Positions 10,552 through 37,597 of a stretch of DNA of 64,000 bases are shown here, in pieces. The first letter of the stretch is position 1, and the number at the start of each line of letters is the position of its first letter. The notes below the pieces were generated by a model. The model worked only from the letters and a program-made list of their open reading frames with translations, was not told the origin of the DNA and did not search any database. The stretch comes from Achromobacter seleniivolatilans. Its GTDB lineage: Bacteria; Pseudomonadota; Gammaproteobacteria; Burkholderiales; Burkholderiaceae_B. The stretch spans positions 3,534,001 to 3,598,000 of the forward strand of contig NZ_CP132976.1 of assembly GCF_030864005.1 (NCBI RefSeq). The letters are read 5' to 3'. Made by a program: the position numbers and the translations under genes.

Positions 10552-11546
10552 TGGCTCGCGCTCAGGAAGCCCCGCTGGACCGCTCCACGCTGCGCGAGGC
10601 GGCGCAATGGCTGATGCGGCTGCATGCGGCGGCCGAACCTGCGCCCGAAGCCTTTCGGCAGTGGGAACAGTGGCGAGCCCTGCACCCGGACAACGAACGC
10701 GCCTGGCAGCGTGCGCAGCAGTTCAACACGCAATTTGGCACAGAGCTTGGCGCCTTGCCGCCCGGTCTTGCACACTCCACCCTGAACCGCAAAATGCCCC
10801 GGCGCAAGGCGCTGGCCGCCATCGGCGGCTTGGCCGTGGGCCTGCCAGCCGCCTGGACCGCGTGGCGGATGGCGCCCATCGCTGCCTGGGCCGCCGAATA
10901 CCGCACAGCGACGGGCGGCCGCCGCGACATCCGCCTGGCCGACGGCAGCACCGTGCAAATGAACACGTCCAGCGCGCTGGATGTGGCCTTTGACGCCACC
11001 GTGCGCCGTATCATCCTGCGGTCTGGCGAAATCCTGGTTCGCACGGCTGGCGATACCGCCCATCCGGCCGTGGCGCGCCCCTTCCTGGTGTCCACCGACG
11101 CAGGCGTCATCCGCACGCTGGACGCGCGCTTTACCGTGCGGCAAACAGACGGCGATTGCCGCGTGTCCGTCCTGGACGGCTCGGTTGACGTCACGCCGGC
11201 TGGCAACCCAGGCCAGCGCTTGCGCGTCGGGGCGGGCCTGTGCGTGCGCTTTACCCGCGCTAGCGCCGGTCCCGTGCAGCCTGTGCTTGGCGGTACAGGC
11301 GAATGGGCTCGCGGCGTACTGGTGGCCGACAACATGCGCTTGGCGGATTTCCTGGACGAATTGGCCCGTTATCGTCCCGGCATCGTGCGTTGCGACCCAG
11401 CAGTGGCGGATCTGCGCCTGTCCGGCGGCTTCCAGTTGCAGGACACTGACCGGGTGCTGTCCCTGCTGCCCGCCACCCTGCCCGTGCAGGTTGTGACCCG
11501 CACCCGATATTGGGTCATGGTCCAGCCGCGCACCGGCACGGTCTGA
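10551..11546 (+). CDS. FecR family anti-sigma regulator
   Basis: A 331-residue inner-membrane regulator partnered with the sigma factor just upstream. The N-terminal DUF4880-type cytoplasmic domain (REAAQWLMRLHAA, QWEQWRALHPDNERAWQRAQ) should bind the sigma factor. A single hydrophobic segment around residues 85-105 crosses the membrane. The periplasmic FecR domain follows (RDIRLADGSTVQMNTSSAL). The C-terminal part, LADFLDELARYRPGIVRC, resembles an STN-like fold. The start at 10551 overlaps the sigma stop; an in-frame ATG at 10530 is an alternative. A signal from the receptor at 11668 would trigger its cleavage. Confidence 0.92.
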   Translation: MARAQEAPLDRSTLREAAQWLMRLHAAAEPAPEAFRQWEQWRALHPDNERAWQRAQQFNTQFGTELGALPPGLAHSTLNRKMPRRKALAAIGGLAVGLPAAWTAWRMAPIAAWAAEYRTATGGRRDIRLADGSTVQMNTSSALDVAFDATVRRIILRSGEILVRTAGDTAHPAVARPFLVSTDAGVIRTLDARFTVRQTDGDCRVSVLDGSVDVTPAGNPGQRLRVGAGLCVRFTRASAGPVQPVLGGTGEWARGVLVADNMRLADFLDELARYRPGIVRCDPAVADLRLSGGFQLQDTDRVLSLLPATLPVQVVTRTRYWVMVQPRTGTV

Positions 11547-11667
11547 GCACTGGCCTTAACGCGCTCTGCGCCGTTACAAATAAGTGCGTTGCCGCATGTC
11601 CGCTTTTCTCCGTTCGCGTGTCAACAACCCCAGCAACACCACAACACGCATCCCAACGGAGAATCCC

Positions 11668-20406: not shown

Positions 20407-20530
20407 GGACTTTCCCCAGTAAAGAAAACGGATCTTTCACAGGGGAAGACGCGCGAGCGGCCAGAACCCGAACGTGTCCGGAAAAATAATTATTCGCACT
20501 ACGGAATCGCAGGCACGCAGTGGTTGGACC

Positions 20531-21496
20531 CTAGCGGCTGGACAGTACCGCCGCCCCGTCAGGTTGACGCGTCAAGGCCACCGGCAACAGGCTAGGCAGC
20601 ATTTCCAGGAAGACATCCGGTTGCCGCAGATCCAGCGTGCCCGACAGCCGCAGATTGCGCGCGCGGGCATCGGCAAAGCGCAATGGGGCGTCGCGGTACA
20701 GCCCCAGATACCCGGCCAACTGCTGCAAGGTGACGTCATGGACCACAACCACGCCCTCCTGCCACGCGCCGACTTCGGTCACCGGCACCTTCAAGCGCCG
20801 CGATATCCGGCCGTCCGCACGCGTCATCAACACGGTATCGCCGGCCTGTAGCGTCTGCCTGGCCGACGTGTCCGCCCCGCCCGCGTCCAGCAGCACCTGG
20901 CCGCTGCGCACACCCACTTGCAGCGTGTCCGGCAGCAACAGAACGTTGAATTGGGTGCCGATGTCGCGCAGTTGCGCTTCACCGGCGCTGACGATCAGCG
21001 GCCGGCGGTCCGGGGCGGCATCGATGTAGACCTCGCCCCCGTCGATGCTGATGTGGCGTTCCGCCAAGGTGTAGCGCACGCTGACGCGCGTGCCCACATT
21101 GGCATGAATGCGAGTGCCATCCGGCAGATCCAGATTGCGCGTTTGCGTGTACGCATTGGCCACGGATTCATAGCTGACTGGCAGATATTGATAGGCCGCA
21201 GCCAACGTCAGCAATAGCGCGGCAAATACGCCCCCCCATTTCAGAAAGACCGGACGCCGGGCGCGGCTTGCAGAGCGTTGCCGCACAGCGTCGGCACGCA
21301 TCGCCGGACGCGGCAACGCCGCCATGTCGTCCCACACCCCGGCCAGACGCTCATATTCCTGCTTATGCAGTGGGGACTGCGCAAGCCAGGTCTGAAACGC
21401 ATTTTCAGCGTCTGCATCGGACGCGCGCGCACGGCGCCGCATGAACCATGCAGCCGCGGCCTCTTCAACAGCGGATAAAGGGTGGGATTGAGTCAT
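20531..21496 (-). CDS. FecR family anti-sigma regulator
   Basis: A 321-residue inner-membrane regulator. The DUF4880-type N-terminus (AAAAWFMRRRARASDADAEN, WLAQSPLHKQEYERLAGVWDD) is the sigma-binding part. One membrane helix lies near residues 88-106 (GGVFAALLLTLAAAYQYL). The periplasmic FecR domain has LDLPDGTRIHANVGTRVSV and GGEVYIDA, and the C-terminal domain ends FADARARNLRLSGTLDL and LPVALTRQ. Its ATG overlaps the sigma stop (ATGA). It should couple the receptor at 17983 to the sigma factor at 21493. Confidence 0.93.
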   Translation of the reverse strand: MTQSHPLSAVEEAAAAWFMRRRARASDADAENAFQTWLAQSPLHKQEYERLAGVWDDMAALPRPAMRADAVRQRSASRARRPVFLKWGGVFAALLLTLAAAYQYLPVSYESVANAYTQTRNLDLPDGTRIHANVGTRVSVRYTLAERHISIDGGEVYIDAAPDRRPLIVSAGEAQLRDIGTQFNVLLLPDTLQVGVRSGQVLLDAGGADTSARQTLQAGDTVLMTRADGRISRRLKVPVTEVGAWQEGVVVVHDVTLQQLAGYLGLYRDAPLRFADARARNLRLSGTLDLRQPDVFLEMLPSLLPVALTRQPDGAAVLSSR

Positions 21497-22038
21497 GACG
21501 CTTCGCCGTGGACCCGGCGTTTACAGTGCGCCAGAGCCAGTTGCAGATGCTTTTCCACCGCGCGCACTGAAATACCCATGCGGGCGGCGATCTCTTCGCA
21601 ACGCAGCTCATCATACCGATAAAGCAAAAAGGCTTCGCGCTGGCGCGGCGGCATCTCATCGATGGCAGCTTGCAGCAGTTGCAGGCGTTGATTCACATCG
21701 GCACGCGCTTCAGGTTGAAGCCCGGCGTGCGCCGTCAGGCTCCCGGCCGGCGGCTCGAACCCCTGGTCGTCCAGGCTGGCCACCACATGTTCACCACGCA
21801 CATTCTCGCGGCGCCAATGGTCGCGCAGCAGATTACGCGCGATTTCGTACAGATAGGCGCGGGGCTTCTCTGGCGGATTGGCGCTGTTGCTGGCCGCCAG
21901 CCATTTGGCGAAGGTCTCCTGCGCCAGATCCCGAGCGGTGTCTGGCGAACGCTTTAGCTGCCGGTTGAGAAACCCCACCAGCTCCGTGTTCCAGGATTTG
22001 TACGCCTCGGCGATTACGCCGAAGAACCGCTCCCCCAT
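21493..22038 (-). CDS. ECF sigma factor, FecI-like
   Basis: A 181-residue ECF sigma factor. Region 2 reads RDLAQETFAKWLAASNS with PRAYLYEIARNLLRDHWRR; region 4 reads MPPRQREAFLLYRYDELRCEEIAARMGISVRAVEKHLQLAL. It is the first gene of a minus-strand module with fecR (4-bp overlap) and a receptor. A Fur-like box is at 22109-22127, about 70 bp upstream. Its sequence differs clearly from the sigma factor at 10054, so the modules are probably independent acquisitions, not a recent duplication. Confidence 0.92.
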   Translation of the reverse strand: MGERFFGVIAEAYKSWNTELVGFLNRQLKRSPDTARDLAQETFAKWLAASNSANPPEKPRAYLYEIARNLLRDHWRRENVRGEHVVASLDDQGFEPPAGSLTAHAGLQPEARADVNQRLQLLQAAIDEMPPRQREAFLLYRYDELRCEEIAARMGISVRAVEKHLQLALAHCKRRVHGEAS

Positions 22039-22550: not shown

Positions 22551-22744
22551 CGTGTCCTTTAGGAAAAATAAGCGCGATCGATGACTTTACACCAGCGTGT
22601 ACGGCCCGCCGTCTAACGGTCATGGTTGCGCAACAAAAGTTTAATCTTCGCGCCTTACGATGGCCGTCTCTGGCTGCCTGACGGTGGTCTGCGTTGGACT
22701 TTCTCTGCGCGTATGCCTTGCTTCGCTGATTCCCCTGCCCTGCG

Positions 22745-23425
22745 TTGCCCGCCGCCGATGTGCGCACCGGGCTGAGGCGTTTGCGCAATATGCTTGCCAC
22801 TCTGGCCGTCGGCGTCGCCGTTGCCTCGTCGGCCCCAACGGCTGCCGCAACGGCTGATCCCGCCCCCGTCTATGCATTCGACTGGCCGCGCCAGCCGCTG
22901 CACAACGCATTGCAGCAATACAGCCAGCTGACGGGCGACTCTGTCCTTTATGACTCTGGCCAGACTTCGGGCAAAACCGCACCCGCGCTGTCTGGACGTT
23001 ACACAGCCCGCGAAGCGCTGGCCCGGCTGCTGGCCGGGACGGATCTGCAAGCACGCTACACCGCCCCCCAAGCGCTGATGCTGATGCCGCGGGTCTTGAC
23101 CCCGCCGGCCCCGGCTGCCGCGCCTTCTTCAGCCGACCGCCAGCAATATTACGGCCGCCTTCAGTCCAAAGTGCTGGCCGCGCTCTGTGCGCAGCCGGAC
23201 TTGCACTTGGGCGAATACCGCATCGCGTTACGGGTGAACCTGAACCGCGCCTACGCGCTGTCCGACGTGCAGGCCCACGCAACGGGCCGCCCCGACATGG
23301 AACCCGCCCTGCGCGGCACGCTGGACGGCCTGCCTATCGGTGCACCGCCGCCCGGCTTCGGCCTGCCCGCCACCCTGTTGATCACCCCAGAAGCCGCACG
23401 CCGTTACGGAGGCTGCAAACCATGA
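22745..23425 (+). CDS. VreA-like signalling protein: STN domain plus TonB-like C-terminus, no barrel
   Basis: A periplasmic signalling protein of 211-226 residues. The start is uncertain: TTG 22745, GTG 22760 and TTG 22781 are possible, and ATG 22790 gives MLATLAVGVAVASS, but the RRLRN residues just before it look like a signal-peptide n-region. After the signal peptide (ends TAAA) comes an STN domain (FDWPRQPLHNALQQYSQLTG, then REALARLLAGTDL). The second half (YYGRLQSKVLAALCAQPDL through LRVNLNRAYALSDVQA) resembles a TonB C-terminal domain. There is no plug or barrel. Its stop overlaps the sigma gene by ATGA. The architecture and context match VreA of the P. aeruginosa PUMA3 (VreARI) system, recalled from the literature. 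Confidence 0.78.
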   Translation: MPAADVRTGLRRLRNMLATLAVGVAVASSAPTAAATADPAPVYAFDWPRQPLHNALQQYSQLTGDSVLYDSGQTSGKTAPALSGRYTAREALARLLAGTDLQARYTAPQALMLMPRVLTPPAPAAAPSSADRQQYYGRLQSKVLAALCAQPDLHLGEYRIALRVNLNRAYALSDVQAHATGRPDMEPALRGTLDGLPIGAPPPGFGLPATLLITPEAARRYGGCKP

Positions 23426-23937
23426 GCGGCGCCGGCCTGGCAGCGTTGCGCCGTTTGATCTCCGACCGGTACGAGGCCATCAAGCACCAGGTCGCGCGAC
23501 GGCTGGGCGGTGCGTCCGACATGGCCGGCGACGCGCTGCACGATGCTTATATGCGCCTGTCTGTAAGAGACGACCTGGACGCCGTGCGCCACCCGCAATC
23601 CTATCTGGTCAACACGGCGGTGCATGTGGCCATTGACCGCATCCGGCAAGACGTGCGGCTGCTGAGTGAAAGCGAAGTCAGTGAATTCTTTGACGTGGCG
23701 GACACGAGTCCAGGGCCGGAAGCGGTGACGCAGTCGCGCTCTGACCTGGCCCAGATGTTCGACGCGCTGGACGGGCTGACTCCGCGTCAGCGCGACATTC
23801 TGCTGGCTGCCCGGGTTGAGGGCTTATCGCGCCCCGACCTGGCCAAACGCTGGGGCATATCGGTGCGTCTGGTGGGACGCGAGCTGCAAACCGCCCACGA
23901 GCATTGCGTGCGGGCAATGGCGCGTACGGAGAGTTAA
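23422..23937 (+). CDS. ECF sigma factor, VreI-like
   Basis: A 171-residue sigma factor. Region 2 is AGDALHDAYMRLSVRDD with VRHPQSYLVNTAVHVAIDRIRQD; region 4 is LTPRQRDILLAARVEGLSRPDLAKRWGISVRLVGRELQTA. The linker between them is acidic. It overlaps the VreA-like gene by four bases. A 104-bp gap containing eight consecutive Ts follows before the FecR-like gene. It should direct transcription of the linked exoprotein gene and perhaps other secretion genes, by analogy with VreI. Confidence 0.88.
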   Translation: MSGAGLAALRRLISDRYEAIKHQVARRLGGASDMAGDALHDAYMRLSVRDDLDAVRHPQSYLVNTAVHVAIDRIRQDVRLLSESEVSEFFDVADTSPGPEAVTQSRSDLAQMFDALDGLTPRQRDILLAARVEGLSRPDLAKRWGISVRLVGRELQTAHEHCVRAMARTES

Positions 23938-24041
23938 TTGCAAGAAAGTGTTTTTTTTCGCCCGTTCCCGTTCCGTTCCGGCCGTCTGGAAACGTCTAGG
24001 TATCAAGACGGCAGACAGCGCCGCGATTAAGAACGACCCCC

Positions 24042-25019
24042 ATGACTTCCGACCTTACCCCCGGCCCCCTCTCTGATTCCGCTATCGAGCGCGAGGCCCA
24101 TGCCTGGGCGCGCGCCTTGGCGACCGGGGCGCCCACCACGCAAGATGGCGACGCTTTCAAAGCCTGGCGCGCCCAAAGCCCTGCGCATGAACGGGCTTGG
24201 GTCCAGGCGGCGCGCGCCTGGCGCGAGCTGGGACAGATTGCCCAAGCCTATGCGGCACGTCACCCGGCCTCGCCCCCACGCCGCGCTCCTGTCAGCGCCA
24301 GTAGAAGATGGTTCCTGGCTGGCGGAGCTGGCGCCTTTGCCAGCATGGCGGTAGCGGGCGTGTTGCGCCCGCCCTTCGGTCTGTGGCCGTCCTGGGCCCA
24401 AGCCAGCGCCGACTATCGCACCGTCACGGGCGAACAGCGCAACGTCACGTTCGGCGATCAGCAGTTGAAACTGGCGCTGAACACACAGACCAGCATCAAT
24501 GTGTCGATCAGCGGCACGCAGCCCAGGATTGAACTGGTGTCAGGCGAAGCCGCCATCCAGGCCAACCGCCAGCAACCCTGCGCGGTACTGGCGGGCGCGG
24601 CGCGCATGGAATTGGCGACGGGAGACATCGAGGTCCGCCATCTGAACGACGACCGGGTCCACGTGCGCTGCATCGGCGGACAGGTAGCGGTGGTGCACCC
24701 GCGCGCGACAAGATTGCTGCTTGCTGGGCAACAACTCGGCTACGACACAGAGAGCTTGGATACGCCGGCCGCATTGGCCGACATGGACTCGGACTGGCGC
24801 TCGGGCATTGTCAGTTTTCACGACCTGCCGCTCAACCAGGCGGTTGAAGAAATCAACCGCTACCGGCCCGGCCGTGTGGTGCTGATGAACGACGCATTGG
24901 CCCGGCACCGGCTGAGTGCCCGGTACGAGGTCAAGAACCTGGACCAGGCCATCACGCAGATACAGCAGTTGTATGGCGCATCGGTACGTCGCGTGGGCGA
25001 TATGGTGTTTCTAAGCTGA
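24042..25019 (+). CDS. FecR family anti-sigma regulator, VreR-like
   Basis: A 325-residue regulator. The N-terminal sigma-binding part contains EREAHAWARALATGAPTTQD and FKAWRAQSPAHERAWVQAARAW. A membrane segment lies near residues 88-107 (WFLAGGAGAFASMAVAGVL). The periplasmic FecR domain has YRTVTGEQRNVTFGDQQLKLALN, and the C-terminal part (FHDLPLNQAVEEINRYRPGRVVLMND) is the STN-like segment. It is the third gene after the VreA- and VreI-like genes and directly precedes the giant exoprotein gene. Confidence 0.9.
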   Translation: MTSDLTPGPLSDSAIEREAHAWARALATGAPTTQDGDAFKAWRAQSPAHERAWVQAARAWRELGQIAQAYAARHPASPPRRAPVSASRRWFLAGGAGAFASMAVAGVLRPPFGLWPSWAQASADYRTVTGEQRNVTFGDQQLKLALNTQTSINVSISGTQPRIELVSGEAAIQANRQQPCAVLAGAARMELATGDIEVRHLNDDRVHVRCIGGQVAVVHPRATRLLLAGQQLGYDTESLDTPAALADMDSDWRSGIVSFHDLPLNQAVEEINRYRPGRVVLMNDALARHRLSARYEVKNLDQAITQIQQLYGASVRRVGDMVFLS

Positions 25020-25042
25020 AGCGCAGCGCATGAATCCGCAGC

Positions 25043-25067
25043 TGTCATAAAAAATTCACGCGGAAAT
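25043..25067 (+). promoter_or_regulatory. Possible ECF-type promoter before exoprotein gene
   Basis: The 80-bp gap before 25100 holds TGTCATAAAAAATTCACGCG followed by GGAAAT (25062-25067), which resembles the FecI-type -35 GGAAAT. It is a plausible target of the linked sigma factor, but the recognition sequence of this sigma factor is not known to me. Confidence 0.25.
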
Positions 25068-25099
25068 CCATGCCGAGTTCAGTCGCGTCGTTCGACTAG

Positions 25100-28000
25100 A
25101 TGAGTAAGCGGGCACGGTGGCTTTGTCACTGCCGCCCTTCATCGACATCCTTGAATCACGCCATGTCCTCGTCTACGTCCGCTACGTCCCCCGCTCTGCC
25201 TTCATCGCGCCAACGCGCAGCCCCGCTCCGATTCAGCCGCCGCGGCCATCGTCCCGCCTGGCGCCTGAGTCCGCTTTCACAAGCGGTAGCAGCGCTGGCC
25301 ATTGCGGGTAGCGCCAGCGGCCCGGCGCAAGCCCAGGCGCGGGCGTTCAGCCCGGGGTGGTTCTCGGACAAGAACGCCGTGCAGTCCACGGCGCAGCGCA
25401 CCGGCCGCATGCCGGATGGCAGCCTGGCAGGTATCGGACAAAGCGCCCGGCAACAGGCGCAGTCGCGCCAGCAATTGCAAAAGTCGCTGGACAACCTGAA
25501 CCGCACTGCTGCGGCGGTGGCTGCTCAGCAGGCCGCGCAAGCGGCCGCCCGTGCAGCCGCTGCCGCCGGCGGCAACGATGTACCGGACGGCCGGGTAGAA
25601 GGCGGTTTGTGGGAAGCGCAAGGCGCCTTGGCCAAATGGGAAGGCGCCAGCGCTGCCGTCGCCGCATCGCAGAACGGCAAGCACACCGTCACGATCGAAC
25701 AAACGCAATCGCGGGCCATCCTGAACTGGGACACGTTCAACGTGGGCCGCAACACCACGGTGCAATTCAAACAAGCCGCCAGCGACGCCGTGCTCAACCG
25801 CGTCGTGGGCGCCAGCGCCAAACCCAGTCAGATCCAGGGCGCAATCAAAGCCGACGGCACCGTGCTGGTCGTGAACCAGAACGGCGTGATTTTCACCGGC
25901 AGCAGTCAGGTCAACACGCGCAATCTGGTCGTGGCTGCGGCCACGATCACCGACGCGCAATTCCGCGACAAGGGTTTGTTCGTGGACACCGATGGCACGC
26001 AAGCCACCTTCAAAGATGCGCTGGGCCAAGTGCAGGTGCAGGCAGGCGCGCGCATCGATACAGCGGTGCCCGCCACCGCCACCAAGGGCGGGGGTTATGT
26101 GCTGCTGCTGGGCAGCGAGGCCCATAACGCGGGCGCGATCACCACGCCGCGCGGCCAGACGGTACTTGCCGCCGGAGACGACTTCGTCATCCGCCGCGGT
26201 TACGGCACCGATGGCAATCCTAAATCCACCACCACCGGCAACGAAGTCAGTGCCCTACGCAAGTCCGGCAGTCAGGCTGGCCTGGTACGCAATACCGGCT
26301 TGATCAGCGCGCCCACCGGCGACATCACTCTGACCGGACACGACGTGCGGCAGGACGGCGTGCTGGTCGCCACCACCGACATCGGCACACGCGGCGCCAT
26401 CCATCTGCTGAACCGGGCAAGCGACGCCACGGGCAGCGTGACCCTGGGCGCGGGCAGTGTCACCGCCGTCGTGCTGGAGGCGTCGGCCGTCACGGGATTG
26501 GACAGCCAGCGCGACGCCGCCATCAAAGCGTTGGATGGCACCGCCACCAACAAGGCAAGCGGCAATTTCGATCACCTGAGCACCGTTGCTGACCGCCAGG
26601 ACCTGTCGCGAATCGAGGTCGTGACAGGCAATCTGGCGACGTTCCAAGGCGGTTCGACCACAGTCGCCACGGGCGGCCAGATCGTGGTGTCAGCCAAGAA
26701 GCAGACCGTGCTGGAAAGCGGAGCGGAACTGGACGTAGCCGGCGCAATCGGCGTGCGGGTGTCGATGGAATCGAACAACCTGCAGATCAACGTGCAGGGC
26801 AACGAGCAGCGCGACGCCCCCATCAATCGCGACAGCAAGCTGTTGAACAACAGCGATGTCTGGGTAGACCGCCGCACTCTGGTCAAAGTGGCCAGCGGCA
26901 CCAACGGCTACAGAGGCGACCGCTGGTACACCAGCGGCGGCCTGCTGGAAGTGGGCGGCTATCTGGTCAACGATGGACGCGGCGCGGGCCAATGGCTGGC
27001 TCAAGGCGGCAGCGCCACGTTTACGGGCGGTGAACTTGTCACCCGCGCGGGATCGGGCATCAACCTGTCGGGCGGCACGCTGGACGTGCAGGACGGCATC
27101 ATCCGCCAAAGCTGGCTGCGCGGCGCGGACGGCCGTCTGTACGAGGTCTCCCGCGCGCCCGGCGACTTGCTTTACACGGGCCTGTACAAGGGCTACGAAC
27201 AGACTCACGAGCGTTGGGGCGAAAAGGCCACGCGCACGTTCTACAACCCGCTGATCGCCCCCCGCGAACGCTTTGAAAGCGGCTACACCGTCGGCCGCGA
27301 TGCAGGCCAGCTGATTGTGTCGACCGCCGCCGCCCAACTCGCGGGCACGCTGACTGGTGAGGTCTATCAGGGCGGCCGCCAAGTCGACGCGCCGCAGTGG
27401 GACGCAGACGGCTACTACCAGAGCCAGACCGCCGTCGCGCGCCGCGCGCAATTGGTCGTCGGCCGGTACACGCCGATCTTCGACGCCACAACCAACATGT
27501 TGGCCTGGACGCTGACCGGTGTTGCCGGGCAGGTTACGGCCGGCACAGGCGAGGCAGGCGCAGGCGAAATTCGCCTGGACGCGGCATGGCTGAATGCGGC
27601 CGGGTTGGGCGGTATCCGGCTGGCTGGCACTGAACACGTCGCGATCAACGAGGCTCTGAGCCTTACATCCGGCGCGGGCGTCGTGTTGTATGCGCCGCAG
27701 GTCGACATCAACGCGGGCATCAGCGCGGCCGGCGGAAAGATACTGGCCGGCAACATACTCAAGCAATGGAACGCGAATGGCCGCAACGAAGACACAGCCG
27801 TATCCGCTCCCACCGGTAAACCAACAGGCGTCACGCTGGGTGCGGGCGCAGTGCTGGACGCAAGCGGACTGTGGACGAACCTGAGCACCGAACCGCAATC
27901 GTCCGCCGGGTTGGCTTACCGCAATGGCGGCAGCGTGGCGCTGCGCAGCACCAATACTGTGGCAATGGCCGCGGACAGCACCGTCGACGTCAGCGGCGGC

Positions 28001-31000
28001 GCGGCCATGCTGGCTACAGGCAAGACTCGCAATGGCAAGGGTGGAGACGTCACGCTGGCTGCCGGCGTCAATGCGGAGGGCGGCGTGCTGACCCTGGACG
28101 GCGCGATAGCAGGCCAGGGCGTGGACGGCGGCGGCAAACTCACGCTGCAAGCGGCCAATGTGCGCATCGTGGCCGCGGACCAAACCGCTGCGATCGCCGC
28201 TGCGGCACGCGCCGGCGGACAAGACGTTTCGATTCTGTCGGACGGCGCCTTCGGACTGGGGTTTTCTCAATACGAAGTCATCGGTTTTCACGGACTGGAA
28301 GTTGCCGACGGTGCGCAAATGCGCGTCACGATGCCGGTGCAGCGCTATGCTCCCAGCGCACGTGCGGCGCAGGACAAAGCCCAGGCTTTGCAGATCTGGA
28401 TGCCACCGCTGTATCAGGAAGACCCGGTCAAAAGCGCCCTGACCCAACGCAAAGGCGCCAGTCTGGCCTTGCAGGCAGGTACGGCGCTGGCAAACGTAGC
28501 CGCGCTGGACACGACCCCGTTGCGCATCGGCGTAGGGGCGTTGATCGAAGTGGACCCGGGCCAGAAAATTGATCTGACCGGCATTGGCCAGATCACGGTG
28601 AACGGCACACTGAATGCGTGGGGCGGAGCCATCGCGGTGCGTGCGCTACGCACAGGTCTGTCGGACGACGCAATCGCCGCCGGCCACGGACGGTCCATCT
28701 GGCTGGGCGAGCGCGCGGTGCTGGACGTTGCCGGGCGCGCAACCACGGCGATCAATCATCAAGGCCAAACCTATGGCCGCGTGCAGGATGGCGGCGCCAT
28801 CATGTTGGGCAGCCAGCTTGACGATGCGCTGGGTGTTGTCGTGGCGCCGGATCTCTTTGTGGTGTTGCGTCCGGGCAGCCGCCTGGATGCCTCTGGCAGC
28901 GCGGCCACCGTGCTCTCCAACGGCGCGCCCGCCTACCTGGCTGGCGCGGGCGGCAATATCGCCATCAGCTCGGGCAACGGCCTGTATCTGGACGGCCAGA
29001 TGAATGCCCGCGCCGGTGGCGCAGGCGCAGCTGGCGGCACGCTATCCATCGCCTTGGACGCTCCGGCCTACCGCATTGCAGCGCTGGGCGCCCGCGCAAA
29101 CAGAAGCCGGGATCTGTTCATCTCGCAACAGACCCTGGCCGACGCACTGGCCAGCTTTACTGGCGCCGACGGCGCAGCAGACGCGCTGGTGTACGGCCAT
29201 GGCGCATTAAGCGTTGAACAAGTCGAATCGGGCGGCTTTGGCAGCTTGAGCCTGCTGAGCAACGGCGCGATCAGTTTCGCGGGCGATGTCAGTCTGCGCA
29301 TGAACCAAAGCCTGCGGCTCTTCAGTGGCTCGATCAACATGATGGAAACGGCGGCATCCAATTCCCGCGTGTTGCTTGCCGCGCCATATGTGATGCTGGC
29401 GGGCGCCACCGACAATGGCGCAAAGGACGGCTACACGCGACCGTCGCACGCCCGGCCCCCTTCCACTCGCGTGAGCGAATCCGTGCTGACCACGGAAGCG
29501 GGTTTCATAGACCTGCGCGACTCGGTCCTGCTGGGCGAGCTGACCGTCAAACACGCGCCAGACGGCGCCGTCAGCTATATCGGCATGGGATTCGCGCAAA
29601 CTGACCTGCGCAGCCAGGGCGACATCCGCCTTCTGGGCGGCCGGGGCACGCAAGTCTCGTTGTCCAATCAGCCCTTCACCACGCAACTCTCCGTACCCGG
29701 CAACCTGAGCCTGACCGCCGCGCAGATCTATCCCGACACGGGCGCCGTCACGCGCATCGTGGCCGGTCTGGGCGGCAAACGCGACGGCATTTTGGGTTAC
29801 GAGGAAGGCAGCACCATCACCATCCGCCGCAGCACGGATACGCTGCCGCCCATGCCGTACACCGCGTTCGGCAGCCTGCGGCTGGGCGCCGACATCATCG
29901 AACAAGGCGGCGTGCTGCGCGCGCCGCTGGGTCTGCTGGAAGTGGGTGTGTCGGACACAACCGGCACCACATCCCGCGCCACCCTGCTGCCCGGCAGCGT
30001 CACATCGGTAAGCGGCCGCGGGCTGGTGATGCCTTATGGCGGCACCGTCGACGGCGTGAGCTACCAGTATGCCGGGGAGAACGCCGCGCTGACCGGCATG
30101 GGCGCGGCCACGATAACGGGTGAACTGCGGGCGGGTCTTCAACTGGCCGGAGAAGAAGTTCGTGTGAGCCAGGACGCGACACTGGATCTGTCAGGGGGAG
30201 GCCAATTGCTGGGTGCAGGGTTTGTGACGGGCCGTGGCGGCTCGACCGACGCCCGCTTCAGCCCGCTGGTGCAGATCAACGCCAAGGGCCAGGGATTCAC
30301 CCTTCCCGGCCTGTCCACCAATCCCGTCTACGCGCTGGTCCCTGGCGTACAAACAACCGTCGCGCCCATTGCGGCGGACGCACGCCAGAACTCACCGCAA
30401 ATCGGTCAACAGGTCACGATAGGCAGCGGCGTGCCCGGCCTGCCCGTCGGCACCTACACGCTGATGCCGTCGACCTACGCCTTGATGCCCGGCGCCTTCC
30501 GCGTGGAAATCAACGGCGCTGCAACGGGCGCCGCGGCCAACGGCGCGATGCAATTGCGCAATGGCTCGTGGGCATTGGCAGGGCGCATGGGCGTGGCCGG
30601 CACGGGCATCGGCAGCGCCGTACCCAAGCAACTATTGATTACCCCGGCGGCGGTGCTGCGGCAGATGTCGCAGTACAACGAAATGGACTATGCCGCCTTC
30701 GTGCAAGCCGACGCCGCACGACGCGGCCTGCCACGCGCCATGCTGCCAGCGGATGCGCGCACGCTCAGGCTCAAATTGAATCCGGGCCCTGAAGGCCAGG
30801 CGTTCGCGTACGCGGGGCGCGCCGACTTCTCCGCTGCGGCGGGCGGCTATGGCGGCACGTTCGCCGTGACCAGCACCAATTCCGGAACTGGCCATACGGA
30901 AATCACGGCGCCTGGCGCGGGGCGGAGCGCGGGATTTGATGGGTTATCCCTGGATTCCGCCCAGATGAGCGCGGTGGGCGCCCCGCGTCTCGTACTGGGC

Positions 31001-34000
31001 GCGCTGCCGAACGTGGACTACTACTCCAACGCCAATACGGTTGACTTCGGGTACGCCGGCACGCACTTCAACTCCCTGGTCTTGCGCGACGGCGCTACGC
31101 TGTCCGCCGCCGAAGTGTTCATGGTCACCAGCGGTCTGACGACCGGCATCACCATCGAAAGCGGCGCTGTCATCAACACCATCGGCCGTGGAAAATCGCC
31201 GTTCGACTCCACTGCCGGTTTCAACTATGGCGCGAGCGCCAGCAGTTTTCTGGCCCTGTCCAACGGCTGGATCAACATGCTCCCGCCCACGGCAGACCAG
31301 GAACCCAATGGCGCCGGCCCCATCCGTATCGGCGTCTGCGCCACGGCTTGCTCGGGAGAGTCGCTGCTCTACACCGAAGGCACGCTGGCCGCGGTGACCA
31401 ACAAAGTCTTCGATCTGGGTACGAACGTCAGCTACGGTGCGCGTTATCTGAACCTGTCGGTGGGCACCGTCAACGCGGGCGGCGAACAGGCGCTGGCCGA
31501 GGCGGCAGCCCGCGGCGCGCTTGCTGACGGCCTGGCGCTGAACCAGACCTTGTTGAACCGTTTGATGGCGGGCGACCGGCGGTTTGGCGCGCCAGCGCTG
31601 GAGATGCTGACGCTGGCCGTCAGCGACTCATTCAATTTCTTCGGCAACGTGACGCTGGACACTATCGACGCGGCCACGGGAAAATCACGCCTGCAAACCC
31701 TCGCGCTGACGGCTCCCGCCATCTATGGTTATGGGCAAGCCGGTGACGTGGCCACGCTACGCGCAGGGAACCTGATCTGGAACGGATCGATAACGCCGCC
31801 CGCAGGCGTCATCGACCATGGCGCGGGCACTGGCAGCGGAACGCTGGATATCCAGGCCGAACGCATCGAATTCGGCTACGGACCCTACACACAACCTTTG
31901 GGCCAGAACGACAACGGCCGCCTGGCTTTGGGATTTTCCGAGGTCAACCTGACGGCCAGCGACCGCATCACCGCCAATCATCGCGGCGCGCTGGAGGTCT
32001 ATCAATCACGCGGCGCGTTCGACGCCGTAAAGGGGTGGCAATATTCCGGCGGCACGCTCAATCTCAATACGCCGCTACTGACGGGCGAAGCCGGGTCCGT
32101 CAACCGCCTCAAGGCGGGCGCAGCCATCAACATCAACGGGCCCGCGGCGGCGCCAGTCAACGCCAACGCAAACGGCTTGGGCGCCGAGCTCTCGCTTGAT
32201 GCCGGCACGCTGAACATCAACGGCCGCATTGCCGTGCCCACTGGCAAACTCAGCTTAAGCGCCGACAACGCGTTGATCCTGGGCGCCAATGCGCAATTGG
32301 ACGTGGCCGGGCGCCCCGTCCCATTCCATGACATCACCAAGTACAGCTGGGGCGGCGATATCAATCTGGAAAGCCGTCACGGCGACATCACTCAGGCTGC
32401 GGGCAGCACCATTGATCTGTCGGCACAGAACAACCGGGCCGGCCGTTTGACGGCCGTAGCGCTGGACGACAACGCTGGCCGCGTGGATCTGCAAGGCCGT
32501 ATCCTGGGCGCGGCTTCTGGCACCTACGACGCGGGCGGCACGCAAGTGCCTTATGCCTTCGGCGAGGTGGACATCCGTGCACAGCTGGTGGACTTTGCCG
32601 GGCTGAACCAGCGCTTGAATGATGGCCAGGTCTTTGGCGGCCGCAGCTTTCAGATCAAACGCGGCAGTCTGGTCGTCGGTGACGAGGTGCGTGCGCGCTT
32701 TGTGAACCTTTCGGTGGATGCCGGAAGCCTGACCGTGGCGGGCCGTATAGACGCCAGCGGAGCAGGCGTGGGCAGCATTCGTCTGGCCGCTCGCGACGGG
32801 TTGCGTCTGGCCTCCAGCGCCGTGCTGGATACCCACGGCACAACGCTGCGCGTGGACAGCTACGGCAAGATCATTGACGCGCCCAACCGCGCCATAGTCG
32901 AGTTGAATTCCGGCCAGGGTTTGCTGCAACTGGATGCTGGCGCAATCATTGATCTGCGCGCGGGCACCGCAGCCCTGAACCACGATGGCCTGCCGCGAGG
33001 CACGCTGGATCTGAACGCGCCGCGTCTGGGCGGCATCAGCGGCGGCGACATCAACATCGACGCGCGCGGCCCGCTGGACATCCGCGGCGCGCGCAGTATT
33101 GCAGTCAATGGCGTATGGATCTACACCGACGCCACGGCCGGTACTGAAACCACAGCAGACGGCAAGCCCTATCAAGTCATCGATCAGGCCTATCTGAAGC
33201 GGCTGCATGATGAAAGCACTGACTTCATCGACAATGCGCGGGCCAACGGCAATCTGATCAACACCAAGCTGGCTGGCTTGCGCGCCTATGGCGACGCGCT
33301 GCATTTGCGCCCGGGCGTTGAGATTCGCAGCGCCACGCCTGACGGCAATCTGGTGGTGCAAGGCGACCTGGATCTGTCCGGCTTCCGCTACGCCAGCATC
33401 AACCCCCATACGCCGCTGCGGCCGGGCGTCCTGGGCTCGGGCGAAGTCGGCAATCTGGTCATACGCGCAGGCGGCGACCTGCAAATTCATGGCAGCATCA
33501 ATGACGGCTTCGCCCCTCCGCCTGTCGTCACACAGGATCTGAACGGCTGGCGTCTGCTGCCGGGCCTGGACTTTACCGGCGCCGACCTGATCACGCCGCA
33601 TGCCGGTGTGGTGCTGACCGCAGGTACCGCATTCCCGGGCGGCGTCGCCTTGAACTACGACGTTGCCTTGCAGGGCGGCACGCTGTCCGAGAATGTGGTG
33701 TTGCCGGTCACGGCGCCGTTGGCTCGCGAATTGGTACTGCCTGCCGGCACAGTGCTATCGGCCCCTATCCTCAACCCCGATGGCAGTGTCGCCCACGCCG
33801 CTGGCACGGTGCTGCGGCAAGCGCTGACCTTGCCCGCAGGCATGCAACTGGGCGCTGGCACGCGCCTGTTGACCAAGACCTTTATCGGCGCCGTCACTTG
33901 GCCTGCGGGCATTCCGCTACCCAATAACGCGAACCCGGAAAACGGCAATGTATTCAACGAGGTCAAACTGGCCAGTGAAGTCACCCTGCCGCGCGGCGCG

Positions 34001-37000
34001 CTGATCCCTGCGGGCACCAAGGTGCAATTGCGGGCAGGTGTGGAATACATCGACTTGCGCCCGGTCGTCGACGGCGCTCAAGGTCAGGTGTGGGCGGTAG
34101 CCCCCATGTTGCCCGAAGGTTCGCAATCGTGGTCGATGCGGCTGGCGGGCGGCGCCGACCTGAACGCGGCCGATACCCGGGCCACGCAATTCACCACGAA
34201 GGACGGTGTCAAACGCGGCGATGTCGTGCTGGCCGACAATCACTACGGCATGTACGGCTTTGATGGCCCTCGCCCCTTCATCTGGACCCAGATGGTCGGT
34301 GACGTGATCGGTATGCCGGAACTGATAGGCCAACCGGTAGACGATGATTTCGTTCGCGACAATTTCGGCTATGCGGATGCCGTCGCGCTTTGCAACGACA
34401 ACCCCGAATTCTGCACGCCCACTGGGGACAGAACTTTCGTCGCCCGCCCGGGCACCGCGCGATTCAGCGTACTGCGCACCGGCACCGGCGATCTGGACCT
34501 GCTGGCCGCTGGCGATCTGCGCATGCAATCGCTCTATGGCGTCTATACGGCGGGTACGTCCTCGGCGGGCACCTACGCTGGCGATCCGTACAATCAGCCG
34601 CGGCTGATCAACGCCGACGGCACGGTGCTGCGCGACCCCAGCAAAGGCTTCGAGGCCTTTGTGGACGGCAGCGCGCAAAGCGTCTACCGCGCCTGGTACC
34701 CGGACGGCGGCGGCAACGTGACGCTGCGCGCAGGCGTCAGTCTGACCGGTGATCTGTTGAAAGCATCGCAGGGATCTGTCGGCCGGCCGCAGGTCCGTTC
34801 CACGGGCTACAACTCCGATCAAGTGGGCAACTGGTTGTGGCGCCAGGGCACTGGCGACGCGGCTATCGGCCAGGCCCAGCCCACTGCATGGTGGCTCAAC
34901 TTCGGTACCTATACCTCGTCTGCTGCCAGTCTGGCTGACGAGCTTGTCGGTTTCACGGGTTTTGGCGCCTTGGGCGGCGGCAACCTGGACATCGATGTGC
35001 GCGGCGACGCGGGCATCATCACGGCGCGCCCTATCAGCTACATGGAGCGCTACATCAACCCGCACAGCCAGGGTCTGGTGCTGGCCGTGGGCAGCACGGG
35101 ACGGGTCATGGCTGACGGCACGCTGGCGCTGACAGGCGGTGGTGACATTTCTCTGCGCGTGGGCGGTAGCTTGAATCCCACGCTGCCCAGTCCCTTCGAA
35201 TCGACAGGCGCCATTACCAACTTGCGCGGCCAGACCCTGCTGCAAGCCGCATCGGTTGGCCGGCTGGACCCTCTGTACAACGTTCTGGCCGCGCGCGACA
35301 CCCGTGCGCTGGACCGGTTCCAGCCGTCCAGCTTCGACGCCACCGGAGGCCTCACGCTGACGCCGGGCGACAGCGCTTTCCAGCTGCAAAGTCTGGGCGA
35401 TCTGGTCGCGCTGAACGCCAGAGATCCAGGCCGCGTGTTCTTGCCGGCAGCCATGCCTTATACGCAGGCAGACGGCACATTGGGCGTGCACGGATCAAGC
35501 AGCTGGTTCTCGCTGTGGACGCCGCATACCGCCATCGATCTGTTCAGCGCAGGCGGAAATCTGTCGCCTGCCGGCGCCGCATCCATCGACAGCGACGGGG
35601 TCAACATTTACCCCTCGCAATTCTCAGCGGTCGCTGCCCACGGCAGCATTCAGTACATCAGGGATGTCGCGCTGGCGCCCGGCGCACTGGCCCGGCTGGA
35701 CCTGCTGGCAGGAGATTCCATCTTCGGCAGCGACTCCACGTTCGGACGCACCAGCGCCAGCACAAGCGCTTTGGCGTCGATCTTCCGGCCAGCGTTTGTC
35801 GGAATGGTGCAAGCGCCCACCAGCAACGCCATCATCTGGGGCCCGAACACGCTGTCGCCCGATGGTACGTATCAAAGCCTCGCTTTATTCACGTTTGAAT
35901 CCATGTCGGCAAGCACGTCCGGCGTCGTTGCGCCCTCTCGCATCTACGCCAGAGACGGCGATCTGGTCGGCGTCAGCAGCGGCCGGTTGATACAACCCAC
36001 CAGCAATGGTGGAACCCCCACCGGCACGAACTGGTATGTGGCCGGCGGCCCGGTGCGCATGATGGCCGGCCGCGACATCGTCGGCAGTGGGAGCCCGCTG
36101 GGCATCAAAAACGGTCTCTCCGGCCCCTATCCGCACGACTACAGCAATAACTACTTCGTCCATGGCGATGCGACCGATGTGTCCGTCGTGCAAGCTGGCC
36201 GCGACATTCTGTATAGCAACTTCACCGTGGCAGGCCCTGGCACGCTGGAAGTCAGCGCGGGCCGCAATATCCTGATGGAAGACAAGGCTGCCGTGGTCAG
36301 CCTGGGCCCTGTCGTGCCGGGCGACACACGCCCTGGCGCCAGCATTGTGCTGCAGGCGGGCCTGGGCGCGGCAGGCGCCGACTATGCAGGTTTCCTGCGC
36401 CGCTATCTGGATGCCGGGAACCTCGCGGACCCCAGCCTGCCGCTGACCGACCAGGGCAAGCCGTTCAAGACCTATGAAACTGAACTGCTGCTGTGGCTGA
36501 CACAACGGTATGCCTTTGCCGGCAACACCGACGATGCACGCGCCTTCTTCAACGCCCTGGCGCCTGAGCAGCAACGCGTCTTTGCGCGCCAGATCTACTT
36601 CGCCGAACTGCGCGCGGGCGGCCGGGAATACAACGACAAGACCAGCCCCCGGGACGGCAGCTATCTGCGCGGCCGGCAAGCCATTGCGGCGCTGTTTCCC
36701 ATCAATAATATTGAAGGCCAGGCACAGACCTACAAGGGCAGCGTCACGATGTATGGCGGCGCAGGCCTGCAAACCCGAAGCGGCGGCGACGTCCAGGTGC
36801 TGACGCCGGGCGGCGCGCAAGTCTATGGCGTCGAAGGCGCCGCGCCTCCGGGTTCGGCGGGCGTGCTGACCCAAGGCCAAGGCAACATCCAGTTGTATGC
36901 GCAGGACAGCATCCTGCTGGGTCAGAGCCGCGTCATGACGACATTTGGCGGCGACATCCTGGCGTGGTCGGCGCAAGGCGATATCAACGCAGGCCGCGGT

Positions 37001-37597
37001 TCCAAAACTACGGTGGTCTACACCCCGCCGCGCCGGGTCTATGACAGCGTAGGCAACATCACCTTGTCGCCCGCCGCGCCGTCCAGCGGGGCCGGCATCG
37101 CCACCTTGGCGCCGTTGGCCGAAGTGCCCGCTGGCGACGTCGATCTGTACGCGCCTCTGGGCACGATTGATGCAGGTGAGGCCGGCATCCGCGTATCAGG
37201 CAATGTGTACATAGGCGCACAGACCGTATTGAACGCGGCCAACATCAAGTCTGAAGGCGATAGCATCGGTGTCCCGGTGGCGGCCAGCGTCAACACTGGC
37301 GCGCTGACCTCCGCCAGCGCCGCAGCAAGCTCTGCCGTGAATGCCGCCCAGGATTCGGCACAGCGCGCGCAAAACCAAGCCCGCCAAAATCAGCCATCCA
37401 TCATCAATGTGCAGATCCTGGGATTTGGCGCAGAACCCGTATCGGGAACGCCAAGCCCGCAAGGCAAGGACGGTCAAGCAAACAATGGGGCGGCCTACCG
37501 GCCTAACAACATGGTGCAAGTCGTGGGCGATGGTGCGTTAACGCCTGCGCAACTGGCCAAACTGAGCAGCGAGGAAAAACAAGCTTTCGGCCTGTAG
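25100..37597 (+). CDS. Giant filamentous-haemagglutinin-like exoprotein (TpsA type, VreARI-associated, DUF3739-like C-terminus)
   Basis: A secreted protein of 4165 residues, 12.5 kb with no break. An extended signal peptide ends near residue 80 (SGPAQAQA). A Gln/Ala-rich coiled stretch follows (about 113-155), then a TPS-type domain at about 160-300 with the NQNGVIF motif at residue 259, which would bind a TpsB outer-membrane transporter. The rest is repetitive beta-helix-like sequence rich in Gly, Ala, Asp and Asn. The last 300 residues match DUF3739, which is linked to VreARI signalling (SILLGQSR, GDILAWSAQGDINAGRGSKTT, YTPPRRVYDS, AGIRVSGNV). RGD occurs at residues 605-607 and 3039-3041. 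The ATG at 25100 is chosen; 25163 is possible. No TpsB gene or toxin tail is seen. Confidence 0.9.
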   Translation: MSKRARWLCHCRPSSTSLNHAMSSSTSATSPALPSSRQRAAPLRFSRRGHRPAWRLSPLSQAVAALAIAGSASGPAQAQARAFSPGWFSDKNAVQSTAQRTGRMPDGSLAGIGQSARQQAQSRQQLQKSLDNLNRTAAAVAAQQAAQAAARAAAAAGGNDVPDGRVEGGLWEAQGALAKWEGASAAVAASQNGKHTVTIEQTQSRAILNWDTFNVGRNTTVQFKQAASDAVLNRVVGASAKPSQIQGAIKADGTVLVVNQNGVIFTGSSQVNTRNLVVAAATITDAQFRDKGLFVDTDGTQATFKDALGQVQVQAGARIDTAVPATATKGGGYVLLLGSEAHNAGAITTPRGQTVLAAGDDFVIRRGYGTDGNPKSTTTGNEVSALRKSGSQAGLVRNTGLISAPTGDITLTGHDVRQDGVLVATTDIGTRGAIHLLNRASDATGSVTLGAGSVTAVVLEASAVTGLDSQRDAAIKALDGTATNKASGNFDHLSTVADRQDLSRIEVVTGNLATFQGGSTTVATGGQIVVSAKKQTVLESGAELDVAGAIGVRVSMESNNLQINVQGNEQRDAPINRDSKLLNNSDVWVDRRTLVKVASGTNGYRGDRWYTSGGLLEVGGYLVNDGRGAGQWLAQGGSATFTGGELVTRAGSGINLSGGTLDVQDGIIRQSWLRGADGRLYEVSRAPGDLLYTGLYKGYEQTHERWGEKATRTFYNPLIAPRERFESGYTVGRDAGQLIVSTAAAQLAGTLTGEVYQGGRQVDAPQWDADGYYQSQTAVARRAQLVVGRYTPIFDATTNMLAWTLTGVAGQVTAGTGEAGAGEIRLDAAWLNAAGLGGIRLAGTEHVAINEALSLTSGAGVVLYAPQVDINAGISAAGGKILAGNILKQWNANGRNEDTAVSAPTGKPTGVTLGAGAVLDASGLWTNLSTEPQSSAGLAYRNGGSVALRSTNTVAMAADSTVDVSGGAAMLATGKTRNGKGGDVTLAAGVNAEGGVLTLDGAIAGQGVDGGGKLTLQAANVRIVAADQTAAIAAAARAGGQDVSILSDGAFGLGFSQYEVIGFHGLEVADGAQMRVTMPVQRYAPSARAAQDKAQALQIWMPPLYQEDPVKSALTQRKGASLALQAGTALANVAALDTTPLRIGVGALIEVDPGQKIDLTGIGQITVNGTLNAWGGAIAVRALRTGLSDDAIAAGHGRSIWLGERAVLDVAGRATTAINHQGQTYGRVQDGGAIMLGSQLDDALGVVVAPDLFVVLRPGSRLDASGSAATVLSNGAPAYLAGAGGNIAISSGNGLYLDGQMNARAGGAGAAGGTLSIALDAPAYRIAALGARANRSRDLFISQQTLADALASFTGADGAADALVYGHGALSVEQVESGGFGSLSLLSNGAISFAGDVSLRMNQSLRLFSGSINMMETAASNSRVLLAAPYVMLAGATDNGAKDGYTRPSHARPPSTRVSESVLTTEAGFIDLRDSVLLGELTVKHAPDGAVSYIGMGFAQTDLRSQGDIRLLGGRGTQVSLSNQPFTTQLSVPGNLSLTAAQIYPDTGAVTRIVAGLGGKRDGILGYEEGSTITIRRSTDTLPPMPYTAFGSLRLGADIIEQGGVLRAPLGLLEVGVSDTTGTTSRATLLPGSVTSVSGRGLVMPYGGTVDGVSYQYAGENAALTGMGAATITGELRAGLQLAGEEVRVSQDATLDLSGGGQLLGAGFVTGRGGSTDARFSPLVQINAKGQGFTLPGLSTNPVYALVPGVQTTVAPIAADARQNSPQIGQQVTIGSGVPGLPVGTYTLMPSTYALMPGAFRVEINGAATGAAANGAMQLRNGSWALAGRMGVAGTGIGSAVPKQLLITPAAVLRQMSQYNEMDYAAFVQADAARRGLPRAMLPADARTLRLKLNPGPEGQAFAYAGRADFSAAAGGYGGTFAVTSTNSGTGHTEITAPGAGRSAGFDGLSLDSAQMSAVGAPRLVLGALPNVDYYSNANTVDFGYAGTHFNSLVLRDGATLSAAEVFMVTSGLTTGITIESGAVINTIGRGKSPFDSTAGFNYGASASSFLALSNGWINMLPPTADQEPNGAGPIRIGVCATACSGESLLYTEGTLAAVTNKVFDLGTNVSYGARYLNLSVGTVNAGGEQALAEAAARGALADGLALNQTLLNRLMAGDRRFGAPALEMLTLAVSDSFNFFGNVTLDTIDAATGKSRLQTLALTAPAIYGYGQAGDVATLRAGNLIWNGSITPPAGVIDHGAGTGSGTLDIQAERIEFGYGPYTQPLGQNDNGRLALGFSEVNLTASDRITANHRGALEVYQSRGAFDAVKGWQYSGGTLNLNTPLLTGEAGSVNRLKAGAAININGPAAAPVNANANGLGAELSLDAGTLNINGRIAVPTGKLSLSADNALILGANAQLDVAGRPVPFHDITKYSWGGDINLESRHGDITQAAGSTIDLSAQNNRAGRLTAVALDDNAGRVDLQGRILGAASGTYDAGGTQVPYAFGEVDIRAQLVDFAGLNQRLNDGQVFGGRSFQIKRGSLVVGDEVRARFVNLSVDAGSLTVAGRIDASGAGVGSIRLAARDGLRLASSAVLDTHGTTLRVDSYGKIIDAPNRAIVELNSGQGLLQLDAGAIIDLRAGTAALNHDGLPRGTLDLNAPRLGGISGGDINIDARGPLDIRGARSIAVNGVWIYTDATAGTETTADGKPYQVIDQAYLKRLHDESTDFIDNARANGNLINTKLAGLRAYGDALHLRPGVEIRSATPDGNLVVQGDLDLSGFRYASINPHTPLRPGVLGSGEVGNLVIRAGGDLQIHGSINDGFAPPPVVTQDLNGWRLLPGLDFTGADLITPHAGVVLTAGTAFPGGVALNYDVALQGGTLSENVVLPVTAPLARELVLPAGTVLSAPILNPDGSVAHAAGTVLRQALTLPAGMQLGAGTRLLTKTFIGAVTWPAGIPLPNNANPENGNVFNEVKLASEVTLPRGALIPAGTKVQLRAGVEYIDLRPVVDGAQGQVWAVAPMLPEGSQSWSMRLAGGADLNAADTRATQFTTKDGVKRGDVVLADNHYGMYGFDGPRPFIWTQMVGDVIGMPELIGQPVDDDFVRDNFGYADAVALCNDNPEFCTPTGDRTFVARPGTARFSVLRTGTGDLDLLAAGDLRMQSLYGVYTAGTSSAGTYAGDPYNQPRLINADGTVLRDPSKGFEAFVDGSAQSVYRAWYPDGGGNVTLRAGVSLTGDLLKASQGSVGRPQVRSTGYNSDQVGNWLWRQGTGDAAIGQAQPTAWWLNFGTYTSSAASLADELVGFTGFGALGGGNLDIDVRGDAGIITARPISYMERYINPHSQGLVLAVGSTGRVMADGTLALTGGGDISLRVGGSLNPTLPSPFESTGAITNLRGQTLLQAASVGRLDPLYNVLAARDTRALDRFQPSSFDATGGLTLTPGDSAFQLQSLGDLVALNARDPGRVFLPAAMPYTQADGTLGVHGSSSWFSLWTPHTAIDLFSAGGNLSPAGAASIDSDGVNIYPSQFSAVAAHGSIQYIRDVALAPGALARLDLLAGDSIFGSDSTFGRTSASTSALASIFRPAFVGMVQAPTSNAIIWGPNTLSPDGTYQSLALFTFESMSASTSGVVAPSRIYARDGDLVGVSSGRLIQPTSNGGTPTGTNWYVAGGPVRMMAGRDIVGSGSPLGIKNGLSGPYPHDYSNNYFVHGDATDVSVVQAGRDILYSNFTVAGPGTLEVSAGRNILMEDKAAVVSLGPVVPGDTRPGASIVLQAGLGAAGADYAGFLRRYLDAGNLADPSLPLTDQGKPFKTYETELLLWLTQRYAFAGNTDDARAFFNALAPEQQRVFARQIYFAELRAGGREYNDKTSPRDGSYLRGRQAIAALFPINNIEGQAQTYKGSVTMYGGAGLQTRSGGDVQVLTPGGAQVYGVEGAAPPGSAGVLTQGQGNIQLYAQDSILLGQSRVMTTFGGDILAWSAQGDINAGRGSKTTVVYTPPRRVYDSVGNITLSPAAPSSGAGIATLAPLAEVPAGDVDLYAPLGTIDAGEAGIRVSGNVYIGAQTVLNAANIKSEGDSIGVPVAASVNTGALTSASAAASSAVNAAQDSAQRAQNQARQNQPSIINVQILGFGAEPVSGTPSPQGKDGQANNGAAYRPNNMVQVVGDGALTPAQLAKLSSEEKQAFGL

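Follow-up and report, generated by a model that had tools for sequence, protein, structure and literature searches.

The forward strand of a 64,000-nucleotide stretch of the Achromobacter seleniivolatilans genome (contig NZ_CP132976.1, positions 3,534,001 to 3,598,000; the whole stretch is hereafter called the window) carries three regulator genes followed by the gene of a giant exoprotein, which raises the question whether this exoprotein is served by a signalling set of its own and, if so, from which promoter and through which exporter. A preliminary description had likened the locus to the VreARI (PUMA3) set of Pseudomonas aeruginosa. This reading is supported by the domains, the fold of the first protein, the gene order, the recurrence of the set in relatives and a conserved promoter preceding the exoprotein gene, and the locus is presented below as a VreARI(PUMA3)-type signalling set located directly in front of a giant exoprotein.

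Genes and proteins of the locus

The locus comprises a VreA-like STN gene (22745-23425, +; 226 aa, with an uncertain TTG start), an ECF sigma factor gene of the FecI/VreI type (23422-23937, +; 171 aa), a FecR/VreR-like anti-sigma factor gene (24042-25019, +; 325 aa) and the gene of a TPS/DUF3739 exoprotein (25163-37597, +; 4144 aa from its likely start). Open reading frames and Pfam domains agree with the four genes and with the order first described (STN-TonB-like protein, ECF sigma factor, FecR, TPS/DUF3739 exoprotein): the VreA-like protein contains an STN domain (9.9e-12), the sigma factor a Sigma70_r4_2 domain (4.1e-9, with region 2 below the cut-off), the anti-sigma factor a FecR domain (5.9e-9) together with DUF4880, and the exoprotein a TPS secretion domain (25667-26338, +; PF05860, 7.8e-26) as well as a DUF3739 domain (36947-37279, +; PF12545, 9.8e-39; also profile search of the genome). 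Comparison with four orthologues indicated that the sigma gene is under purifying selection. The tight packing initially ascribed to the genes applies to the STN and sigma genes, which overlap by 4 nt, but not to the sigma and FecR genes (104-nt gap) or to the FecR and exoprotein genes (80-nt gap, counted from ATG 25100). Likewise, the 12.5-kb exoprotein frame (25100-37597; 4165 aa from ATG 25100) was confirmed as an open frame with its TPS and DUF3739 domains, but translation probably starts at ATG 25163; ATG 25100 was rejected because it lies two bases 3' of the predicted transcription start and is out of frame in the orthologue of genome G007, which has a 1-nt insertion. Canonical signalling sets are found near the module: three TonB-dependent receptors with an STN domain are encoded in the window (17983-22038 (-), 10530-14148 (+) and 411-2942 (+); open reading frames and Pfam), and two of them adjoin FecR-type genes.

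The VreA-like protein has, according to Pfam, an STN domain alone, without a match to a plug or barrel. A profile of 19 relatives matched the signalling domains of FemA, PupB, FecA and FpvA, and the predicted model (mean pLDDT 86.5) has the fold of the PupB/FecA/FpvA signalling domains, with the PupB signalling domain as its best fold match (E 8e-7). For the second half of the protein, weak evidence suggests a TonB/TolA-like character: profile matches to HasB (E 0.063) and TonB (E 0.16) were weak, TonB_2 stayed below the Pfam cut-off in the two paralogues of the window protein, and TolA C-terminal domains were weak fold matches (E 0.03-0.04) ranked under several unrelated ones. The pTM of 0.46 implies that the relative placement of the two halves is not fixed by the model. 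Two cysteines of the TonB-like half, C148 and C224, are invariant in 19 aligned relatives and may possibly form a disulfide. The same make-up, STN plus a TonB/TolA-like domain without a barrel, is reported for VreA (PMC2729926 / PMC4971064).

Distribution of the modules and of the exporter

The genome contains three DUF3739 exoproteins and three full-length STN-TonB proteins, paired one beside each, and because of this pairing the four-gene arrangement is not due to chance. The other two modules possess sigma and FecR genes in the same order as the window (the STN gene of module 3 is located at L013:4457-5173), and their exoproteins show 35-78% identity to the window exoprotein in blocks of 250 residues.

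In a survey of this genome and 36 other Achromobacter genomes (n=37), 52 DUF3739 exoproteins were found in 21 genomes, with up to five per genome. The linkage tally covered all 56 exoprotein rows and 49 STN rows, leaving aside frames of receptor size and two incomplete STN matches (G025 contigs C67 and C121). Regulators are located upstream of 38 exoproteins and downstream of eight, i.e. beside 46 of the 52 exoproteins of the genus, so that the outcome named in the preliminary description as refuting, a lack of co-occurrence in related genomes, was not obtained; five exoproteins are cut, or seemingly cut, by contig ends, and one is an orphan. In the 38 cases the STN protein lies 13.4-14.9 kb before the DUF3739 domain, i.e. 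5' of the exoprotein. Nine of the 52 exoproteins have an STN protein only on their 3' side: at one (G015:C58) the next STN protein belongs to a second module and the contig does not cover the region upstream of the exoprotein itself, while the other eight represent a second gene order, with the exoprotein first and STN-sigma-FecR behind it. Five have no STN protein in reach, namely three cut by contig ends (G015:C37, G025:C119 and G025:C121), one probably cut (G018:C284) and the orphan (G022:C3), for which the flanking stretches retrieved from its 922-kb contig contain no STN, sigma or FecR gene on either side. The two STN genes that lack an exoprotein in reach lie close to contig ends, with sigma, FecR and the beginning of an exoprotein gene behind them. 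Each of the 41 upstream-type loci examined, among them the window, has the order STN-sigma-FecR-exoprotein; in two of them FecR is split into two frames.

At L126 (G008), the sole downstream-type locus with annotated upstream genes, the exoprotein is preceded by type II secretion genes and by a gene for a periplasmic binding protein, and the same holds for the orphan exoprotein (L138); these type II secretion genes recall the Hxc genes near PUMA3. Weak PstS-family matches were located upstream of the exoprotein in G002, G007 and G008, the three downstream-type genomes among the 21 searched.

Outside Achromobacter, full-length STN-TonB proteins occur in at least three genomes (G193, G319 and G384) among 399 drawn from the order, at E 1e-18 and with at most six candidates per genome scored, a procedure that may miss copies. 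In four genomes of other families, a DUF3739 exoprotein occurs together with a TpsB (40-44% identity), and no STN-TonB protein was found at the threshold used; the linkage of STN regulators and exoprotein is not universal.

No TpsB was noticed in the list of open reading frames behind the window exoprotein, and the six POTRA_2 matches of the genome all fall outside the window. A tpsB gene is located directly behind the exoprotein of paralogous module 2 (G000:C1:56904-58652), and is followed by genes for DUF2341-ExbB, ExbD, TonB-like proteins and a porin. TpsB of this class (at least 64% identity) is present in all 21 Achromobacter genomes with a DUF3739 exoprotein and in none of the 16 without; the genus possesses 22 of them for 52 exoproteins, and only G022 has two. 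Sharing of TpsB across modules appears probable from these comparisons. Residues 51-250 of the window exoprotein cover the beginning of the TPS domain and display 78-94% identity to paralogue 2 and 76-94% to two orthologues, with identity down to 30-74% in the blocks of residues 251-650; paralogue 3 shows 46-66% in residues 51-250. One exporter common to modules 1 and 2 would fit these values, and module 3 less clearly so.

Where paralogue 2 (L225) is set against window positions 25163-25912, identity at residues 51-250 equals the orthologue level, which suggests gene conversion or a strong common constraint at the export signal. Before tpsB, a promoter-like block with CGTCTAG is conserved between this genome and five others (L011, about 1800-1930; L194-L197 and L199), and this motif resembles the exoprotein promoters. 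Two TpsB frames (G006:C9:165769-167457 and G007:C1:5894361-5896046) contain one in-frame TGA each.

Promoters, phosphate and competing explanations

The gap that had been singled out earlier as the likely control region (25020-25099) contains a promoter conserved in seven orthologues. It comprises a pho-box-like element CTGTCAT-AAAA-AATTCAC (25042-25059, +; 11/14 matches) and a promoter core CGTC...CTAG (25086-25099, +) with a predicted +1 at A25098. In this FecR-exoprotein gap, TGTCATAAAAA-TTCA and GCG-C-TTCGACTAGATGAGTAAG are common to the seven orthologues, the former without variation, while the regulator genes show differences at 46-62% of their synonymous sites. GGAAAT (25062-25067) was rejected as a conserved -35 box, the window -35 sequence not being conserved in the orthologues. 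The predicted leader, from +1 to ATG 25163, measures 65 nt, and that of pdtA 53 nt (PMC2729926 / PMC4971064).

The pho-like score was taken as the number of matches to CTGTCAY-N4-CTGTCAY anywhere in 130 nt. The window element (first half-site perfect, second 4/7) scores 11/14 with a shuffle P of 0.02, and its exact sequence occurs once in the genome. Scores of at least 11/14 were obtained for 24 of 41 exoprotein upstreams versus none of 21 receptor upstreams, where the 41 loci form few classes and are not independent, and the receptor control stretches were chosen around their most A/T-rich part, two of them being shorter than 120 nt. Within class I (n=7), three loci, the window among them, score 11 and four score 10. 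The spacing between element and core is constant within promoter classes: the box-to-CTAG distance is 35-37 in ten loci with a forward element, 38 in 16 of the 18 loci with a reversed element (the other two have no CTAG), and 30 in five loci with a weaker reversed element. The element is absent in eight of the 41 exoprotein loci, including module 3 of this genome; a pho-like site near that module (G000:C1:2298103) precedes an M81 metallopeptidase gene and was set aside.

The pdtA promoter of P. aeruginosa depends on its pho half-sites (positions -56 to -50 and -45 to -40 were disrupted), on a -35 core (-34 to -30) and on a -10 core (-11 to -5) (PMC4971064). If the first half-site of the window (25042) is aligned with pdtA -56, CGTC coincides with the -10 region and the transcription start with the A of CTAG (25098), an overlay that is a fit by eye and not an independent test.

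A candidate promoter for the STN-sigma-FecR genes (22628-22661, +) consists of a degenerate pho-box-like element (22628-22645), 10 nt and a -10-like TACGAT (22656-22661), its place and spacing being kept in seven aligned orthologues. With a score of 11, the window element does not exceed shuffled sequence (P 0.32); its aligned orthologues reach 13-14 in five of six cases, the exception being G012, which resembles the window. In most modules of the genus, a pho box upstream of the STN gene is followed after 10 nt by a -10-like hexamer, a spacing shared with the pstS promoter of this genome. A combined score of at least 14 was reached in 41 of the 49 loci scanned (40 upstream-type, eight downstream-type and the partial STN gene of G025:C121), or 41 of 50 with module 3 of this genome, which was scanned separately; spacings of 9-11 were allowed, and all 47 loci scoring at least 11 took 10. 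Among the controls, 20 receptor upstreams scored no more than 13 and coding stretches of 53 loci no more than 12. Outside the genus, where four of five full-length copies were scanned, two STN loci score 14-15 with spacing 10, and one of 13 receptor controls reaches 14, with spacing 9. Putative phosphate control of the regulators is well supported by sequence for the genus as a whole and is not supported for the window copy. Judging by the pho boxes, a link to phosphate starvation may have arisen early in PUMA3-type systems rather than being peculiar to P. aeruginosa.

We consider it likely that the locus is a VreARI-type module for one exoprotein, with a sigma-dependent start at about 25098, probable help from PhoB and export by a remote TpsB. 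Linkage and the conserved promoter point to the sigma factor as the driver of the exoprotein gene; from the observed gene content and order, genus-wide linkage, promoter conservation and exporter distribution we infer the specificity of the sigma factor, PhoB binding, export via the remote TpsB and a signal. An envelope signal would act via the VreA-like and FecR-like proteins, the TonB/TolA-like domain of the former contacting an envelope partner and its STN domain meeting the FecR/VreR-like anti-sigma factor in the periplasm, and the ECF sigma factor would be freed. The freed sigma factor would then recognize the promoter at 25042-25099 and initiate the exoprotein transcript at about 25098; at this promoter, by analogy with pdtA, PhoB on the pho-box-like element probably must help, and the product would be exported by the TpsB at G000:C1:56904-58652. 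If PhoB is needed, exoprotein expression would require phosphate starvation plus the signal. The first step, a signal via the VreA-like protein, is the least secure, because in P. aeruginosa low-phosphate expression does not require VreA and the signal is not known (PMC4971064).

Several findings count against this explanation: the window STN promoter is no better than shuffles, four of the seven class I loci score 10/14, of 41 loci, 18 have the pho-like element reversed, five have it in a weaker reversed form and eight lack it, the window -35 is not conserved, four genomes of other families are without an STN-TonB protein, the exoprotein of G022:C3 is an orphan, and the exoprotein of module 3 shares only 46-66% identity with that of the window in residues 51-250. 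Some of them bear on the alternative that survives best, in which the same module and sigma target operate without PhoB and the A/T-rich element at 25042-25059 serves only as an UP-element in a promoter of the FecI type. A-tracts, e.g. GTTACAAAATA or AAAAAATTCA, are also present in receptor promoters of this genome, for which reason the pho-like element was not accepted as proof of PhoB control and is kept as probable only; the element's reversal in those 18 loci and the window STN promoter without a good pho box favour the UP-element as well. We nevertheless regard it as unlikely, since no receptor upstream attains the score reached by 24 of 41 exoprotein upstreams, the STN promoters of most modules carry a pho box at the spacing of the pstS promoter, and the pho box is required by pdtA (PMC4971064). 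Still less probable is that the exoprotein gene is read through from the STN-sigma-FecR operon, or that the sigma factor mainly serves another target and the genes are mere neighbours: the common strand and the gaps of 104 and 80 nt would suit read-through, but the gap is filled by a conserved promoter core, and in eight loci the regulators are kept even 3' of the exoprotein, where read-through into it is impossible. Control by the neighbouring FecI-FecR-TonB receptor set (17983-22038), a canonical set about 0.7 kb away, is hardly credible, as exoproteins across the genus are accompanied by an STN-sigma-FecR set of their own and the window promoter element occurs once in the genome.

Relation to known systems

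Two-partner secretion of the FhaB/FhaC type is characterized by a TPS domain, a very large exoprotein and a ShlB-type partner; the first two recur here, together with a predicted partner of this type, and the window system differs by its DUF3739 C-terminal region, the non-adjacent position of the predicted partner and the attached sigma/anti-sigma set. With FecI-FecR-FecA it shares an STN signalling domain, FecR and an ECF sigma factor, whereas its STN protein is without receptor barrel or plug and its predicted target is an exoprotein rather than a receptor.

PUMA3 of P. aeruginosa (PMC2729926, PMC4971064) is similar in its barrel-less STN protein, whose second half is TonB/TolA-like in VreA and possibly so here, its ECF sigma factor and FecR-like protein in the same order, its TPS exoprotein, and, for PdtA, a promoter with a layout of pho box and -10 on which the pho-box-like element and core of the window can be superimposed. 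The exporter cluster of module 2 (TpsB, DUF2341-ExbB, ExbD, TonB-like, porin) recalls the P. aeruginosa genes from pdtB-exbB2D2-tonB4-PA0696 onwards. Unlike in PUMA3, the window exoprotein lies directly behind the regulators, TpsB is not beside the window copy, this genome has three modules, and the regulator promoter in the window lacks a persuasive pho box.

Repeated PUMA3 clusters were reported in 2009, four times in R. palustris and also in Janthinobacterium, three followed by a tpsA homologue and one by tpsB with exbBD (PMC2729926). Several PUMA3 clusters with tpsA behind them are thus a feature shared with Achromobacter, where, in contrast, the TpsB cluster lies behind one exoprotein module and a second order, with the exoprotein first, occurs. 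The earlier suggestion that such an arrangement is under-described in Alcaligenaceae holds at most for Achromobacter, since PUMA3 clusters with tpsA directly behind were already noted in other genera; among the papers listed for such systems, no title or opening of an abstract describes these Achromobacter modules. The present analysis adds the genus-wide distribution of TpsB and the conserved promoter elements.

More tentatively, and with more doubt than confidence, Achromobacter might be pictured as possessing a switchboard of several giant exoproteins, most with their own sigma/anti-sigma/VreA-like set and promoter class and with one common exporter (with its own ExbB-ExbD-TonB-like genes), enabled by phosphate starvation. 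If so, a cell would show different exoproteins on different signals. The PUMA3 signal being unknown in the model species, a genus with several exoproteins offers natural replicates, and makes signal specificity, the pairing of sigma factors with promoters and the sharing of one TpsB testable in Achromobacter.

Elsewhere in the window (59125-63837, -), a 1570-aa protein with DUF4011, helicase-like AAA domains, an MTES_1575 nuclease-type domain and DUF3320 (Pfam) is encoded, which is possibly the product of a defence gene.
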